From assembly GCA_017439805.1 (NCBI GenBank), contig JAFSIK010000042.1, forward strand, positions 1 through 35,674: a DNA stretch of 35,674 nucleotides, given 5' to 3'. The position numbers and the translations under genes are program-made. Numbering within the stretch: the first letter of the stretch is position 1; each line of letters starts with the position of its first letter. Origin of the DNA: Oscillospiraceae bacterium. Lineage in GTDB: Bacteria; Bacillota; Clostridia; Oscillospirales; Oscillospiraceae. The notes under the pieces were generated by a model that was not told where the DNA came from, did no database searches, and worked only from the letters and a program-made list of their open reading frames with translations. Below are positions 1 through 7,377 of this stretch, one piece after another.

Positions 1-2183
1 TAGATATTCTCGCCGCCGCGGATGATCATATCCTTCAGACGTCCGGTAATGCGGAAGTTGCCGTTTTCGTCCTCGCAGGCCAGGTCGCCTGTGTGCAGCC
101 AGCCCTCTGCGTCGATGGTTGCGGCGGTTGCGGCGGGCATTTTATAATAGCCTTTCATGATGTTATATCCGCGGGCAACGAACTCGCCGTCCACACCGAC
201 AGGACATTCCTCGCCGGTTTCGGGGTCAATAATTTTACACTCAACGTTTGCAAAGCGGCTGCCGACGGTGTTCGTGCGCACATCCAGAGAGTCGGTGAAG
301 CTGGACATGGTGCAGCCGGGAGAGGCCTCGGTCTGTCCGTAAACGCTGACTATCTGGGTCATGTTCATAACATCCGCTGCCTTGCGCATCAGGTCGGCGG
401 GGCAGTTTGCGCCGGCCATAATACCGGTGCGGATGTGGGAGAAGTCGGTTTTGGCAAAATCCTCATGGTTCATCATTGCGATGAACATTGTGGGAACGCC
501 GTTGAACGCCGTGATCTTCTCCTGATTTATGCAGGCCAGCGCAGGCTTGGGAGAGAAGTAAGGCAGAGGGCATATGGTTGTGCCATGGGTCATGGATGCG
601 GTCATCGACAGCACCATGCCGAAGCAATGGAACATTGGCACCTGTATCATCATACGGTCAGCGGTGGACAGATCCATATGATCGCCTATATATTTGCCGT
701 TGTTTACAACGTTGTAGTGGGTCAGCATAACGCCCTTGGGGAAGCCGGTTGTGCCGGAGGTGTACTGCATATTGCATACATCATTGGGGTTTACAGCGGC
801 AGCCATGGCACGCATTTCCTCCACGGATACCTGTCCGGAGCGCTCCACGGCTTCCTCCCAGGTCATGCAGCCATCCTGTCTGAAGCCTACGGTTATAACA
901 TTTCGCAGGAAAGGCAGACGTCTGGAGTGCAGAGGCTTGCCGGGACGGGTGGTTTTCAGTTCGGGACACAGCTCGTTGATGATTTCGGCATAATTGGAGT
1001 CCCGGTATCCCTCGACCAGTATAAGAGTGTGGGTATCGCTCTGGCGCAGCAGATACTCCGCCTCGTGAATCTTGTAGGCGGTATTGACGGTTACCAGTAC
1101 GGCGCCGATCTTGGCCGCAGCCCAGAAGCTTATATACCAGGCAGGTACGTTGGTGGCCCAAACGGCAACCTTGTCGCCGCGCTTTACGCCCAGAGCAATC
1201 AGACTGCGGGCAAACTCGTCCACATCGTCACGGAACTCGGAATAGGTGCGGGTATAGTCCAGAGTGGTGTAACGGAAAGCCGGCTGGTCGGGGAAATGCT
1301 CCACCTGAGCGTCCAGTACCTGAGAGAAGGTGGCGTCTATAAGGGTATCTTTTTTCCAGATAAATTCGCCTGTACCGGCGGTGTTGCGGTAAAGCTCTTT
1401 CTTTTTGCGGCTGACGCTTCTGAAGCGGCCGATGTAATCCACATAATGAGAGAAAATTATCTCGGTATCGGGTAATTCGGGTATCCACTCGGGATCCCAC
1501 AGCAGAGACACGAAACCGTCGTAGTTTACAGAGCGCAGAGCGTTTACCAGCTCTGTCATGGGCAGCTGACCGTCGCCGATAAGTTCGGGGCACTCCCCTG
1601 CTTCGGTTTTTACCGCATCGTAAACACGTACGTGCTTTACATACGCGCCAAGATTGCGGATGGTAAATTCAGCGCTCTCACCTGCGGCAAGACAGGTGTC
1701 GTGCATATTCCAGCAGGCAGACAGCAGGTCGCTGGCAAAATAATTCAAAACGTCACGCAGGCGTTCGGTATTGCTGAAAACCCCGGTGGTCTCAATCAAT
1801 ATCTCAACTCCCATGACCTCGGCCTCTGCAATGATTTTCTCCAGACGGGTCTCAACCGCCTCCATATCCTCGCAGCAGGTATGGACTACCACGTAGGGTA
1901 CGCTGAGATTTCGTGCGGCGGAAAGGGCATCGGAAATCTCACCGCTGTTTTCGTCCATCATATCGGCGGCAGTATCGATGCAGGGTATCTCCAGCTTCTG
2001 CTCGGCCAGTCTGCGGCGGGTGGCACGGGCCAGTTCGGGATTGATTGGGCTGGATTTGTCAGCGAATATTTTTTCAGTAACAGAGCCGATGACGATGCCG
2101 GCAAACTTGCTGGCGGCAGCCATGGCGCAGTAATCGTTCCAGCTTTCCGCCGGGATGTATCTTGTGGTAAATGCTGTTTTCAT
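1..2183 (-). CDS. TIM-barrel / acyl-CoA synthetase fusion protein (C-terminus cut by window edge)
   Basis: One uninterrupted minus-strand frame of 727 codons starts at 2183 and runs off the left edge. Residues 1 to about 255 look like an AP-endonuclease-2/xylose-isomerase-type TIM barrel, with LIET (E131), WNMHDT (H161, D162), HVRVYD (H184, D189) and IGDG. From about 275 the protein is an AMP-forming acyl-CoA synthetase. It has the ATP loop YTSGTTGFPKG at 474-484, YGQTEAS at 615-621, HTGD at 697-700 and GRLKDMIIRGGENI at 714-727. The acyl-CoA synthetase family activates a carboxylic acid as an acyl-adenylate and then an acyl-CoA. The barrel suggests sugar or polyol isomerase/epimerase chemistry, but its substrate cannot be read. 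The usual last metal Glu of the barrel is not obvious (SLLWDPEW at 226-233). The start lies 3 nt after the upstream stop with an AGGGGG site, so translation is probably coupled to the LeuA-like gene. Fold assignment is confident; function is not. Confidence 0.88.
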   Translation of the reverse strand, partial: MKTAFTTRYIPAESWNDYCAMAAASKFAGIVIGSVTEKIFADKSSPINPELARATRRRLAEQKLEIPCIDTAADMMDENSGEISDALSAARNLSVPYVVVHTCCEDMEAVETRLEKIIAEAEVMGVEILIETTGVFSNTERLRDVLNYFASDLLSACWNMHDTCLAAGESAEFTIRNLGAYVKHVRVYDAVKTEAGECPELIGDGQLPMTELVNALRSVNYDGFVSLLWDPEWIPELPDTEIIFSHYVDYIGRFRSVSRKKKELYRNTAGTGEFIWKKDTLIDATFSQVLDAQVEHFPDQPAFRYTTLDYTRTYSEFRDDVDEFARSLIALGVKRGDKVAVWATNVPAWYISFWAAAKIGAVLVTVNTAYKIHEAEYLLRQSDTHTLILVEGYRDSNYAEIINELCPELKTTRPGKPLHSRRLPFLRNVITVGFRQDGCMTWEEAVERSGQVSVEEMRAMAAAVNPNDVCNMQYTSGTTGFPKGVMLTHYNVVNNGKYIGDHMDLSTADRMMIQVPMFHCFGMVLSMTASMTHGTTICPLPYFSPKPALACINQEKITAFNGVPTMFIAMMNHEDFAKTDFSHIRTGIMAGANCPADLMRKAADVMNMTQIVSVYGQTEASPGCTMSSFTDSLDVRTNTVGSRFANVECKIIDPETGEECPVGVDGEFVARGYNIMKGYYKMPAATAATIDAEGWLHTGDLACEDENGNFRITGRLKDMIIRGGENI

Positions 2184-2186
2184 GTA

Positions 2187-3608
2187 TTAGCCCCCTTCGT
2201 AGACGATCTTGTTCAGGGCGTTGATGTAAGCCTTGATGCTTGCACCGATAATATCGGTGGAAATACCGCTGCCGGAGTAGAGTCTGCCACGGTCGCGGAT
2301 TTTTATAAGGGCGGAGCCCATGGCGTTGCGGCCCTCGGTAACGGACTGGATCTGAAAATCATCCAGCTCGTAATGGCGGCCTATAATCTGTTCGATAGCC
2401 ATAAAGGAGGCATCGATAGGACCGTCTCCGGCGCTGGTGCCGATAAGCTTTTTGCCGTCGCGCTCCAGAGTTATGGTAGCCATGGAGGTAATGCTGTTGC
2501 CGTTTGTAACAACATAGTTGTCGATGTTATAGACGGAAGGCACCTGCATAGCGGTGGAGGCGATGATAGCTTCCATTTCCCGGGTACCGATGAACTGCTT
2601 TTTCTCTGCGGCCTGCCGGAAAGCTTCGTATACCTTTACGTTGTCCTCCTCTGACAGGTTGTAGCCCATCAGGCCGATGACCTTTACCATTTCGGATATA
2701 TCATCGTTTTTGTCCAGAGTAATGTTTTTGGTAATACTCTCGCTGTCCATCATCACCTCATCAAAGGGTGACTGCTCGCTGCGCTTTGTCTGAAGAATCC
2801 AGCGCAGCTGCTTGGAGGAGCGGTTCAGGCTGGCGGTTCGGATACCTACTTCAAATCCCAGGCTGTCGCCCTTGGCCTGTATGAAATGAACGAAATCGTC
2901 CATTTTTACAAAACTCTCATCGGCGATGGAGGTTTTTATCTCATCCACGCCGTTTTCCAGCGCGGCGCATGCGCAGGCCACGCCAAGATGCAGACCGTCA
3001 GACAGCTGAGCACCCAGAGTAATGTCGTACAGGGCGGGAATATCAGATCGCAGGCTGCTGATAAATTCGGAAAATTCTTTGGAAGTATAAGCTCCCGCAT
3101 TGTCGCAGACAGTAATCTGGGAGGCGCCGGCCTCAATGGCGGTTTTGATGGCCTTTCGCAGGAAATCGGGCTCGGCGCGGGTAGCGTCAACGGCAGAAAA
3201 TTCAACCTTTTCACACTTTTCGCGGCAGGCAGAAACCAACTCTGTTACAGTTTCCAGAACAGCGGGGGCCTTCATGCCGCAAATATACTCCATCTGCACG
3301 GAGGAAACGGGCATCATAACATGCAGCGCGGGATTTTTAGCGTCCTTAATGCTGTTCCATGTGTCCTCAACGGATTGAACGGTCATACCTACAGCGGCGG
3401 AAATGACCGCGCTGTTCACTCCGGTGGCGATTGTGCGGTTGGTGAGCATATCCGCACGTCTGTCCTTAATGGGAGGAAGCTCTATTTTATCAACATTGAG
3501 CTTATCCAGAGATCTGGCAATTTCCAGTTTTTCTCTGAAACTCAAAGAATAATCCTTACCGGGAACAAATTCCCTCAATGTAATGTCGGAAACGGTGATT
3601 TTCTTCAT
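2187..3608 (-). CDS. 2-isopropylmalate synthase-like protein with degraded metal site
   Basis: 473 residues. The N-terminal part (about 1-270) is an HMGL-like TIM barrel and the C-terminal part (about 365-465) is a typical LeuA regulatory domain, with GDGPIDASF, VTEGRNAMGS and STDIIGASIKAYINALNK. In true 2-isopropylmalate, citramalate and homocitrate synthases the divalent metal is held by the Asp of LRDG, both His of HxHND and the Asn of GERxGN. Here the matching positions read E13 (DITLRE), Q201 and S203 (AQLSDG), and S260 (GIRTAS). Normal Claisen condensation with acetyl-CoA is therefore doubtful. The protein could be a changed-function enzyme, a regulator or an inactive paralogue. The start has an AAAGGAG site 8 nt upstream. 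The gene sits directly behind a T-box leader and 3 nt ahead of the TIM-AMP-ligase fusion, which argues for a shared pathway. Automatic annotation would probably call it leuA; I would not. Confidence 0.85.
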   Translation of the reverse strand: MKKITVSDITLREFVPGKDYSLSFREKLEIARSLDKLNVDKIELPPIKDRRADMLTNRTIATGVNSAVISAAVGMTVQSVEDTWNSIKDAKNPALHVMMPVSSVQMEYICGMKAPAVLETVTELVSACREKCEKVEFSAVDATRAEPDFLRKAIKTAIEAGASQITVCDNAGAYTSKEFSEFISSLRSDIPALYDITLGAQLSDGLHLGVACACAALENGVDEIKTSIADESFVKMDDFVHFIQAKGDSLGFEVGIRTASLNRSSKQLRWILQTKRSEQSPFDEVMMDSESITKNITLDKNDDISEMVKVIGLMGYNLSEEDNVKVYEAFRQAAEKKQFIGTREMEAIIASTAMQVPSVYNIDNYVVTNGNSITSMATITLERDGKKLIGTSAGDGPIDASFMAIEQIIGRHYELDDFQIQSVTEGRNAMGSALIKIRDRGRLYSGSGISTDIIGASIKAYINALNKIVYEGG

Positions 3609-3632: not shown

Positions 3633-3917
3633 AAAAATCCCAGAAGCTGAATTTATCAGCTCCTGGGACGATAATAAACTATTACCGCGGTACCACCCGG
3701 GATTACTGCTTTCGCAGTCACTCGTCGGACTCTTTCAAGTCCCCGGCCATGATAACGGAGCCTGCCGTAGTCCCTTAATACGCAGCGGCGGTTCGGGGAC
3801 TCTGCTCAGGTAGGAGACTGCGGGTTTTTGACCTGCCGGCTTTCACCTGCCGCCGGCTCTCTGCAAGGTTTTTAAAAACTCGCATAATACCTTCAACGCA
3901 TTTAGGTTATTTTGTTG
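3633..3917 (-). ncRNA. T-box leader of the LeuA-like operon
   Basis: On the minus strand, the antiterminator T-box sequence GGGTGGTACCGCGG lies at 3685-3698. It is followed by a terminator hairpin at 3638-3668 (TCCCAG...CTGGGA) and a T-run at 3633-3637. Upstream is a Stem I-like region with an AGAGAG element and a GCCGGC distal arm. T-box leaders bind a cognate uncharged tRNA and then allow read-through. The specifier loop lies between GCG/CGC and AGGTA/TACCT helices, and its 3' strand is AGTCTCC. CTC (Leu) at 3814-3816 fits the downstream gene. TCC (Ser) at 3813-3815 cannot be excluded by eye. Confidence 0.93.
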
Positions 3918-3969: not shown

Positions 3970-5328
3970 TTAGTTTTTAAGACTGTGCATGGGAGCGGGA
4001 ATTCGCCCTCCCCTGCCGATGAAATCCACACTGCTTTCCTGGTGGACGGGCATTACAGGAGCACTGCCAAGAAGTCCGCCGAATTCCACGCTGTCACCCA
4101 CCACCTTGCCCGGTGCGGGAATTATGCGCACAGCGGTGGTTTTGGTGTTTACCACACCGATGGCAGCCTCGTCGGCAATAATGGCGGAAATGGTTTCTGC
4201 AGTGGTGTCACCGGGAACGGCTATCATATCAAGACCAACGGAGCATACGCAGGTCATGGCCTCAAGTTTGTCAAGAGTCAAAGTTCCGCCGGAAGCGGCA
4301 GCTATCATGCCCTCGTCCTCGCTGACGGGGATAAACGCGCCGGAAAGGCCTCCCACGTGACCGGATGCCATAACGCCGCCCTTTTTAACGGCGTCGTTGA
4401 GCATGGCAAGAGCCGCGGTGGTGCCGTGAGTGCCGCAGGTCTCAAGACCGATTTCCTCCAGAATACGGGCCACACTGTCGCCCTTTGCGGGAGTGGGAGC
4501 CAGTGAAAGGTCCACAACTCCGAAAGGCACGTCCAGACGTCTGGAGGCTTCCTGTGCCACCAGCTGACCCATGCGGGTTATTTGGAAAGCGGTTCGTTTG
4601 ATGGTTTCGGCAACCACATCAAAGCTGGCGCCTTTGACCTTTTTCAAAGCGCTGTGCACAACGCCGGGGCCGGATACGCCCACATTTATGACACACTCAG
4701 GCTCGCCCACACCATGGAAAGCGCCGGCCATAAAGGGGTTATCCTCAACGGCATTGGCGAACACAACCAGCTTTGCGCAGCCAAGTCCGCCGTCAGCTGC
4801 CGTAAGGGCGGCGGTTTCCTTGATAACGCGACCCATAAGGGCAACAGCGTCCATATTTATACCGGCCTTGGTAGTGGCAACGTTTACGCTGGAGCAAACA
4901 CGCTCGGTGGAAGCCAGAGCGGCGGGAATCGACGCGATAAGACGGCGGTCACCTTCCGTAAATCCCTTATGTACAAGAGCGGAAAAACCGCCTATGAAAT
5001 TTACTCCGCACTCTTTTGCCGCCTTGTCCATCGCCACGGCAATGGGGGTAAGGTCATCAGCGCGACAGGAGCCTGCAACGATGGCGGCGGGAGTAACGGA
5101 AATTCTCTTGTTTACGATGGGAATACCCAGTTCGTTTTCAATTGCGCAGCCTGTAGCCACCAGATTTTCAGCCTTGCGGACAATTTTTTCATAAATACGC
5201 CGGGCGCATTCATCAATGTCCTCATGGGCGCAGTCCAGCAGGGATATGCCCATAGTTATGGTACGGATATCCAGATGCTGATTGTCGATCATGGCCAGGG
5301 TGCGCAGTATTTCTTTATGACTGATCAT
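3970..5328 (-). CDS. UPF0210 family protein (PFL-like fold)
   Basis: 452 residues matching the UPF0210/DUF711 family, whose fold is related to pyruvate formate-lyase-like barrels and whose biochemical role is not settled. Recognisable stretches are [38 protein letters not shown], and the Gly-rich segment HVGGLSGAF near residue 340. Length is usual for the family (about 450). No signal peptide or membrane segment is visible, so it is probably cytosolic. The start follows a GAGGTG site and lies 8 nt after the stop of the UPF0237 ACT gene. UPF0237 and UPF0210 proteins are commonly encoded side by side, so the two probably act together, with the ACT protein perhaps sensing an amino acid (inference). 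Confidence 0.9.
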
Positions 5329-5336
5329 TTGGCACC

Positions 5337-5606
5337 TCAGACCTTATACATTGCGTTGAAAATGTCCTCGCGCTGGATACGGATGGCAAGACCGGTATCC
5401 TCGCCCTTCTTTTTAAGGGATGAATGGATGGTTTCAAAGGGAGTTTCTGTGTTTCCGATATCCACCAGCATGGTCATGGTGAAAAAGCCCTGCATTACCG
5501 TCTGGTTGATGTCCAGAATATTTACACCCATAGAGGCAAGCAGGGTGCATACCTCAGCAATAATACCCACTCGGTCGTTGCCGACTACAGTTACAATTCC
5601 TCTCAT
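5337..5606 (-). CDS. UPF0237-type ACT domain protein
   Basis: 89 residues from the ATG at 5606. The frame is open further upstream, but a start beyond 5623 would overlap the preceding ACT gene and lacks family similarity. A single ACT domain fills the protein: [19 protein letters not shown], then [14 protein letters not shown] and a hydrophobic FTMTMLVDI strand. ACT domains bind amino acids and control partner proteins. The usual partner of this small family is the UPF0210 protein, which is encoded 8 nt downstream. The gap to the upstream tandem-ACT gene is 16 nt. Confidence 0.88.
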
Positions 5607-5622
5607 TTTCAATACCCTTACC

Positions 5623-6060
5623 TTAGAATTTATCCACTTCCTGCTGGCTGATAATGTGAACGCCGGCATCGGAGAGAATTTTTGCGCACTTTTCCTTGTC
5701 AGAGGGACGGATGATAATTACCGCGTCGTCAAGAGTGCTGCGGCAGAAAGAATAGGAATACTCGATGGAAATATCGCTTTCCTCGATAAGTGCCAGGATA
5801 TTTGCAAGCCCCATGGGCTTGTGGGGCATGCCAACACAGAGCACTTCGTTGGCCTTTGCAATATAGCCGTTTTCCTTAAGAACTTCGATAGACTTGTCAA
5901 CATCCCCGCTTTTTACGATGCAGCGGATAATGCCGAAACCGGCGGTGTCTGCTATGGACAGGGCAAGAAGATTTATTTCGTTTTCACCAAGGACGCGGGT
6001 AAGTTCCTTGAGAGTTCCTTTTGCATTTTCAAGAAAGACGGATACCTGTTTGATAAACAT
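5623..6060 (-). CDS. tandem ACT domain protein
   Basis: 145 residues. Two ACT-like modules are visible: residues about 1-70 (QVSVFLENAKGTLKEL, then GFGIIRCIV) and about 72-140 (VLCVGMPHKPMGLANIL, then DDAVIIIRP). No enzyme domain is attached. Small double-ACT proteins often sit beside phenylacetate-CoA ligase genes in anaerobes. They are taken to be amino-acid or aromatic-acid sensors, but the ligand is unknown. A GGAGG site precedes the ATG, and the gene starts 12 nt after the paaK stop in the same operon. Confidence 0.88.
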   Translation of the reverse strand: MFIKQVSVFLENAKGTLKELTRVLGENEINLLALSIADTAGFGIIRCIVKSGDVDKSIEVLKENGYIAKANEVLCVGMPHKPMGLANILALIEESDISIEYSYSFCRSTLDDAVIIIRPSDKEKCAKILSDAGVHIISQQEVDKF

Positions 6061-6072
6061 TGTGCTTCCTCC

Positions 6073-7377
6073 TTAAATCTTTCTGTTGTCGATAAGACGC
6101 TTGGCCTTGCCTTCGCTGCGGGGTATGGAGCGGGGCGCCACAAGGGTGATCTTGCACTGGATGCCAACAACGGATTTTATCTGGTCGGCAATCTGGCGGC
6201 GGAGAGTTTCAATGTGAGCCACGGTGTCGGAGAACATATTTTCGGTCAGTTCCACCTGTACCTCCAGACTGTCAGTGTAATTTTCACGCTCAGCAATAAT
6301 AACGTAATGAGGAGCCACGCCGTTTATGCCTACCAGAACGGACTCGATCTGGCTGGGGAATACGTTTACGCCGCGGATGACCAGCATATCGTCGGTACGA
6401 CCGGTGATTCGGCCCATACGGACGTGAGTTCTGCCGCAGGGGCAGGGATCGTCGTAGAGCACGCATATGTCATGGGTGCGGTAGCGCAGCATGGGCTGGC
6501 CTTCCTTGGTGATGGTGGTGAACACCAGCTCACCGGGTACGCCGTAAGGCATGGGCTCGCCGGTAACAGGGTCAATAATTTCGGGGATAACATGGTCCTC
6601 GTTTACATGGCAGCCGTTTTTGGCACAGCATTCAAAGGACACGCCGGGGCCGGCAATTTCGGTCAAGCCGTAAATATCCATAGCGTCAATATTCAGCAGA
6701 CCCTCAAGATTGCGGCGCATTTCCTCACTCCAGGGCTCGGCGCCGAAGCAGCCGGACTTGAGCTTAAGGTCGTCAACGATACCCATTTCGCGGGCAGTCT
6801 CACCCAGATAGGTGGCATAGGACGGGGTACAGCACAGCATGGTGGAGCCAAGTTCCTTCATCATCATAAGCTGGCGCTGGGTGTTGCCGCTGGACATGGG
6901 GATTACCATGGCGCCAACTCTCTGGGCACCCTGGTGAGCGCCGAGTCCGCCGGTAAACAGGCCGTAGCCGTAGGCCACCTGAATGATGTCATCGGGTCCG
7001 GCGCCGGCAGCGGTAAGGGCGCGGGCAACCATTTCGGTCCATACCTCAATGTCATTTGCGGTATATCCGGAAACGATTGGTTTGCCGGTGGTGCCGGAGG
7101 AACCCTGAATACGGACTATTTCCTTTTTGGGTGCTGCAAGCAGACCAAAGGGGAAGCAGTCGCGCAGGTCGGTTTTTTCGGTAAAAGGCAGCAGACGCAG
7201 GTCATCGCGGGTCTTTATATCCTCGGGTCGCACACCCTTTTCATCCATTCTCTTTCTGTAAAGAGGTACGTTGTCGTACACTCTGCGGACGGTTTCAGCC
7301 AGACGCTTGCTCTGAATTTCAAACAGCTCGTCCCGGCTGATACACTCCATTTTAGGATCGTAAATTTTGTTTTCCAT
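6073..7377 (-). CDS. paaK: phenylacetate-CoA ligase (or aryl-acetate relative)
   Basis: 434 residues, the normal PaaK length. It is an AMP-forming ligase with the ATP loop GSSGTTGKP at 92-100, the TPSYATY segment near 184-190 and YGLTE at 236-240. A Cys/His-rich stretch (FECCAKNGCH) and a DPCPCG motif are typical of the PaaK branch, as is the C-terminal GRTDDMLVIRGVNVFPSQ. The family converts phenylacetate or similar aryl acids (including indoleacetate) plus ATP and CoA to the aryl-acetyl-CoA. In gut anaerobes this usually serves aromatic amino acid by-products. No aerobic paa ring-oxidation genes are nearby. It is followed by two ACT genes and UPF0210, all co-directional. The start is supported by AGTAGGAG. 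Confidence 0.92.
   Translation of the reverse strand: MENKIYDPKMECISRDELFEIQSKRLAETVRRVYDNVPLYRKRMDEKGVRPEDIKTRDDLRLLPFTEKTDLRDCFPFGLLAAPKKEIVRIQGSSGTTGKPIVSGYTANDIEVWTEMVARALTAAGAGPDDIIQVAYGYGLFTGGLGAHQGAQRVGAMVIPMSSGNTQRQLMMMKELGSTMLCCTPSYATYLGETAREMGIVDDLKLKSGCFGAEPWSEEMRRNLEGLLNIDAMDIYGLTEIAGPGVSFECCAKNGCHVNEDHVIPEIIDPVTGEPMPYGVPGELVFTTITKEGQPMLRYRTHDICVLYDDPCPCGRTHVRMGRITGRTDDMLVIRGVNVFPSQIESVLVGINGVAPHYVIIAERENYTDSLEVQVELTENMFSDTVAHIETLRRQIADQIKSVVGIQCKITLVAPRSIPRSEGKAKRLIDNRKI

Follow-up and report, generated by a model that had tools for sequence, protein, structure and literature searches.

The gene at positions 2187–3608 (minus strand) of the window, i.e., the whole 35,674-nucleotide stretch of Oscillospiraceae DNA that was analyzed, encodes a LeuA-like protein whose metal site has been lost family-wide and whose regulatory domain has been kept, and it is, on balance, probably a LeuA-derived pseudoenzyme serving as the leucine sensor of an isovalerate-based leucine route. 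The parts of this reading, judged from sequence comparisons, differ in strength: the operon very likely represents an isovalerate-to-leucine setting that works by reductive carboxylation, and it is likely, if somewhat less so, that the LeuA-like protein is a non-catalytic leucine sensor within that setting; the ligase substrate, the protein–protein contact, the binding of leucine, and the direction of regulation are what we infer on these grounds.

Domain organization and loss of the metal site

The 473-aa protein is translated from a real open reading frame with an ATG start and shows the domain order of LeuA, with a Pfam HMGL-like domain (residues 4–229) followed by LeuA_dimer (residues 343–468). 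All of the features given below lie on the same strand as the gene. The TIM-barrel (HMGL-like) domain as a whole spans residues 1–270 (positions 2799..3608; PF00682, 104.6 bits), and in the AlphaFold model of the protein (mean pLDDT of 85.7), whose top structural matches are methylthioalkylmalate synthase and LeuA, the barrel superposes on 3ewb with an rmsd of 2.0 Å and a TM-score to target of 0.91. Against the bacterial LeuA model TIGR00973 the protein scores 250.5 bits (cut-off 598.7), and against the LeuA model NF002086 it scores 282 bits (cut-off 532).

The active site was inspected in an alignment of the window protein with 89 relatives (the family, n = 90), E. coli LeuA, and 10 LeuA sequences of the same order. 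The metal-binding HxH pair (H202 and H204 in E. coli) is replaced by Q201-L-S203 (positions 3000..3008), just as the sequence-only reading had it, and the replacement is family-wide: the pair is intact in none of the 90 sequences, with a single His being kept in only one of them (L057), the first position being occupied by Q in 52, E in 24, and S in 9 sequences, and the second by S in 75 of the 90. The Asp of TLRD (D14) was likewise correctly described as changed to E13, although this change is conservative and the weakest of the set, since Glu is present in only 43 of the 90 sequences (Q, K, or A being found in others) and is itself a normal metal ligand in homocitrate synthases. A further proposed substitution, N to S260, does not hold, as residue 260 is not a ligand position. 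The ligand in question is instead an Asn within the NGxGER loop, a metal/substrate residue in M. tuberculosis LeuA (N321; PMC2704214) that aligns with N230 in E. coli LeuA, and the loop carrying it has been deleted from 88 of the 90 family sequences, including the window protein, where residues 228–229 (positions 2922..2927) mark its former place. Also absent from the window protein is the SGIHQ segment with the catalytic His (H379 in M. tuberculosis): a shortened linker, residues 277–287 (positions 2748..2780), which is a low-confidence stretch of the AlphaFold model, stands in place of the LeuA QPNKAIVG..HESGIHQDG segment. At the S-x-E-D motif, the window protein has V140 where the catalytic Glu would stand, and 17 of the 90 sequences still have Glu there.

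His ligands placed elsewhere in the barrel would have spoken against a lost metal site, as was acknowledged from the outset, and no conserved His is seen elsewhere in the barrel across the 90 aligned sequences, which led us to reject metal ligands relocated within this domain. The metal site of LeuA and the DRE-TIM metallolyases (TLRD Asp, HxH, and Asn of NGxGER), taken as a whole, is missing throughout the family, and the old active-site positions (13, 14, 201, 203, 205, and 229–231) vary freely among the relatives. Conserved in a family-specific manner within the barrel are K113 (90/90), K225 (87/90), and C168 (83/90), and D8, E43, D141, R144, and D169 are kept in the family and are invariant in true LeuA too. 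A lone pseudogene or an assembly error is ruled out by the open frame and by the many-member clade showing the same losses; being a family trait, the loss of the site cannot be ascribed to chance, misassembly, or a young pseudogene, and its family-wide extent strengthens the original observation.

Retention of the regulatory domain

The regulatory, predicted leucine-binding domain comprises residues 343–470 (positions 2199..2582). That it is well kept had been claimed from the window protein alone, and the family comparison makes the case stronger than it was put: mean pairwise identity within the LeuA-like family is 74% in the regulatory domain versus 46% in the barrel, whereas true LeuA of the same order show the reverse pattern (63% in the barrel and 46% in the regulatory domain). 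In M. tuberculosis LeuA, the leucine pocket is formed by L535, A536, V551, Y554, A558, A565, and A567, the feedback mutants of the yeast enzyme map to G531, G533, and A536, and the Phe mutant of Y410 loses its response to leucine (PMC2704214). The equivalents in the window protein, as read from the alignment, are I398, D399, L415, F418, S422, A429, G431, G394, G396, and Y316, of which L415, F418, A429, G431, G394, G396, and Y316 (positions 2661..2663; the counterpart of Tyr410) are each found in 90/90 family sequences. The same invariance (90/90) applies to the equivalent of G462 of E. coli LeuA, whose G462D mutation relieves feedback (PMC12967937). The domain is thus a LeuA-type regulatory domain both by its PF08502 score (107.6 bits) and by its conserved pocket residues, and leucine binding itself is predicted from these.

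Leucine T-box

Upstream of the LeuA-like gene lies a T-box leader (positions 3661..3905; Rfam RF00230, 100 bits against a gathering threshold of 93) with the leucine specifier codon CUC (positions 3814..3816). A T-box motif precedes the LeuA-like gene in 79 of 99 loci, two more being recognized by Rfam, and about a fifth of the relatives are without a recognizable T-box by motif. The specifier is CUC or CUG, both of them leucine codons, in all 78 readable T-boxes, and a U occupies the bulge of the antiterminator in 79/79, which fits A73 of tRNA-Leu. The RF00230 structure, the specifier, and the bulge base matching A73 all identify a leucine T-box; serine, valine, or another specificity is ruled out, as leucine alone fits both CUC and CUG, and the bulge U does not fit tRNA-Ser and other G73 tRNAs. 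CUC also serves as specifier in the ilv-leu operon of B. subtilis, according to Marta (1996) as cited in PMC2494555.

Two loci are worth recording separately. In one (L110:260-509), the T-box is located far upstream of the LeuA-like gene, its specifier is read, doubtfully, as ACG, and no next gene was recognized. In another (L121:6776-7370, corresponding to G059:C41), two divergent T-boxes stand back to back, one with a leucine specifier facing the LeuA-like gene and one with an isoleucine specifier facing two XRE-cupin-ligases and VOR genes.

Distribution and the missing classical leucine pathway

Relatives are encoded in at least 581 stretches of species genomes, the 80 retrieved being from gut and rumen Clostridia. 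An order-wide sample of 147 genomes contained 30 carriers plus one partial, all scoring at least 497 bits, with true LeuA coming next, from 372 bits; in the tree that had been called for, a single branch with full support splits the LeuA-like family from true LeuA, leaving it a clade of its own. In a phylum-wide sample of 249, just two genomes were carriers, that of the window and one belonging to another class, the latter showing the same leucine T-box and ligase. The plasmid records searched returned LeuA-type matches only, at ~25% identity.

LeuB above the cut-off is found in 1 of 31 carriers versus 85 of the 116 other genomes (Fisher p ~3e-13), and the figures for LeuC are 1 of 31 versus 84 of 116 (Fisher p ~6e-13). 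Whether a canonical leuA exists elsewhere was among the checks proposed alongside the sequence-only reading, and a recognized LeuA is present in 0/31 carrier genomes; IlvC is found in 3/31. The window's genome (G000), which is only ~80% complete, lacks both LeuB and LeuC, but 20 of the 31 carriers are at least 90% complete, and gaps therefore do not explain the missing genes. With LeuB and LeuC absent from 30 of the 31 carriers, the LeuA-like protein cannot supply isopropylmalate to the usual pathway, which rules out a substitute IPMS in normal leucine synthesis and, together with the missing metal site and catalytic His, bears out the claim that its reaction, if any, would be other than the normal one.

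The sole carrier in the sample with LeuB, LeuC, and IlvC (G089) has all three in one cluster on its contig C45 and possibly represents a transition state between two leucine routes. Five other carriers (G011, G016, G080, G093, and G106) encode a full-length LeuB-like protein of 250–268 bits, below the LeuB cut-off, and no LeuC.

Gene neighborhood and a second ligase arm

Directly downstream of the LeuA-like gene, in 93/93 relatives with enough sequence (neighbor counts being made by tblastn), there is a fusion of an AP_endonuc_2 domain, itself a TIM barrel, with an AMP-forming acyl-CoA ligase whose nearest model is PRK12583; in the window, it occupies positions 1..2183 and is truncated by the end of the contig, whose first base is also that of the window. 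The Hyi-type metal residues of its AP_endonuc_2 barrel (residues 1–260) seem intact in L030, L046, and L056 and partly replaced in the window copy, which may be decaying too.

Other partners in the 52 long loci are PFOR (22), an amidohydrolase (21), and VorB (9). Of the 31 carriers, 17 have VorB and ilvE no more than 5 kb apart, versus 1 of 116 other genomes (p 6e-13, with positions read by hand from two tables). The fullest arrangement, seen on one strand in L105, L117, and L118, runs XRE-cupin-AMP ligase, P-loop ATPase, VorB-A-G, IlvE, leucine T-box, LeuA-like protein, ligase fusion, and amidohydrolase; in L116, the genes follow one another in this order too, with no T-box above the Rfam threshold, and an acyl-CoA ligase, a 2-oxoacid:ferredoxin oxidoreductase, and a branched-chain transaminase are linked in L105 and L116–L120. 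In the window's genome, the ATPase-VorB-A-G-IlvE-PFOR cluster is on contig C42 and the LeuA-like gene on C17. VorB above the cut-off is missing from G025, G060 (where PFOR is in the operon instead), and G080, only a fragment of it is present in G106, and no IlvE (TIGR01123) match was obtained in carriers G011, G059, and G127. PFOR-type proteins are seen in or beside the operon at L021:5275-8781, L122:10458-13958, and L115:1856-5455, and may have branched 2-oxo acid specificity.

The nearest NCBIfam model of the XRE-cupin ligase is MbcS (NF047394), which in S. aureus activates short branched acids, preferring 2-methylbutyrate and isobutyrate and using isovalerate poorly (PMC10026030). Wherever Rfam detects a T-box for this ligase, its specifier is AUC (isoleucine; 5/5 loci), whereas CUC is the specifier for the LeuA-like gene at these loci, and the two ligases are therefore split by amino acid, isoleucine versus leucine. 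The natural acid of the ligase beside the LeuA-like protein, we infer, would be isovalerate. Unlike MbcS, the second ligase has N-terminal XRE and cupin domains and an isoleucine T-box, and the ligase beside the LeuA-like protein belongs to a different subfamily (PRK12583) and is fused to the AP_endonuc_2 barrel. At L105:59-2347 and in its relatives, the XRE helix-turn-helix, cupin, and MbcS-like acyl-CoA ligase form one polypeptide, which possibly regulates its own or other genes.

Elsewhere in the window (positions 5337-7377, minus strand), two ACT-domain proteins, one with a single ACT (5337-5669) and one with an ACT pair (5623-6060), lie beside a PaaK-type aryl-CoA ligase (6073-7377), a parallel case of a ligase for acid activation standing next to an amino-acid sensor, perhaps for aromatic acids. 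The DUF711/UPF0210 protein at 3970-5328 (minus strand) adjoins the ACT protein, a common pair.

Discussion

Rumen leucine has been reported to arise from isovalerate by carboxylation and amination (Allison 1962, 1966, as cited in PMC7356843), and the three enzyme types such a route needs are the ones clustered here, with the LeuA-like protein as the remaining member. In the proposed scheme, the adjacent ligase fusion would convert isovalerate to isovaleryl-CoA, the 2-oxoacid:ferredoxin oxidoreductase would reductively carboxylate this to 4-methyl-2-oxopentanoate, and IlvE would transaminate the latter to leucine. Uncharged leucine tRNA would turn the operon on via the T-box, and leucine, once accumulated, would bind the LeuA regulatory domain of the LeuA-like protein, the resulting change being relayed by the linker (Tyr316) to a barrel empty of catalytic function and inhibiting a partner, most likely the ligase as the committed step. 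Allosteric feedback on the neighboring ligase would be the simplest role for a protein that no longer catalyzes and yet has an invariant leucine pocket and Tyr316. Of the two options originally offered, a changed reaction or a sensor, the sensor is the better one, as neither the pocket for leucine nor the Tyr that transmits its signal varies; the accompanying phrase “rather than leucine synthesis” is in one sense probably wrong, given the leucine T-box and an operon resembling an alternative isovalerate-to-leucine route.

Could the protein still be an enzyme? It might use a new metal-free barrel site within the same isovalerate-to-leucine operon, with, e.g., an acyl-CoA or a 2-oxo acid as its substrate, and the retained D8, E43, D141, R144, and D169, along with the new and almost invariant K113, K225, and C168 (strand periodicity suggesting that K225 points into the barrel), can be cited in favor. 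We consider this unlikely, as the positions around the old active site vary freely, the catalytic-His segment that closes over the substrate is gone, and the five retained residues may be structural because they are invariant in true LeuA as well. The catalytic alternative keeps a small probability because the two Lys and the Cys are new and nearly invariant, and its more specific form, in which a metal-free active or binding site is built around these three and a condensing enzyme has turned into a different catalyst with its leucine switch kept, is marginally less probable still. That the protein is a true 2-isopropylmalate, citramalate, or homocitrate synthase holding its metal by other residues is scarcely credible: the fold and the domain order are indeed those of LeuA, but the 90 relatives have lost all four metal/substrate residues, along with the GxGERxG loop (the Asn loop in 88 of them) and the catalytic His, the score is 250 bits versus a LeuA cut-off of 599, and 30 of the 31 carriers have neither LeuB nor LeuC to follow.

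The purpose of the operon may be questioned as well. VOR and IlvE can work in the oxidative direction, so that the genes might degrade leucine to isovalerate in a Stickland-type oxidation; this is very improbable, as leucine and isoleucine T-boxes activate genes in starvation, AMP-forming ligases run towards acyl-CoA, and the carriers are without the classical leucine pathway. Isovaleryl-CoA might instead serve as a fatty-acid primer, and an operon for branched-chain membrane lipids, in which the LeuA-like protein merely reports the leucine supply, would have a parallel in S. aureus MbcS, which supplies 2-methylbutyrate and isobutyrate to FabH (PMC10026030). Such an operon is, however, improbable here, since the T-box responds to uncharged leucine tRNA, VOR and IlvE, unneeded for lipid priming, are clustered with it, and the leucine synthesis genes are absent.

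Under the leucine sensor reading, the protein can be set beside several known systems. It shares with LeuA (TIGR00973, NF002086; M. tuberculosis 1SR9/3FIG) the barrel–linker–regulatory order, the leucine-pocket residues, and the Tyr410 equivalent, and leucine T-box control is known for leuA and ilv-leu operons too; unlike LeuA, it is ~40 residues shorter and is devoid of the metal ligands, the catalytic His and Glu, and the NGxGER loop, and its family forms a separate clade, far below the LeuA cut-offs, that has no LeuB/LeuC partners. HisZ, which works with the short HisG, is a regulatory pseudoenzyme paired with an active enzyme, and the likeness lies in a dead paralogue that retains a ligand-binding role for its partner, although the partner proposed here, the ligase, is not paralogous to the dead enzyme. 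With the rumen carboxylation of isovalerate (Allison 1962, 1966, via PMC7356843), the operon has in common the predicted substrate and product, the gut and rumen hosts, and the sequence of carboxylation followed by amination, whereas the present proposal adds a set of candidate genes in one operon, controlled by a leucine switch of its own and including a partner protein derived from LeuA. In the literature searched, no gene assignment for the isovalerate-to-leucine route and no LeuA pseudoenzyme were found.

Tracer work on the rumen since the 1960s showed that branched volatile acids are the starting material from which some anaerobes form leucine, valine, and isoleucine, and the operon family described here offers a concrete candidate gene set for this branched-acid route, the leucine and isoleucine switches distinguishing its two arms. 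If the proposed reading is true, isovalerate-based leucine supply would become readable from gut and rumen genomes that are otherwise scored as leucine auxotrophs, and the regulatory half of an enzyme would have outlived its catalysis and been put to new use in controlling a competing route to the same end product.
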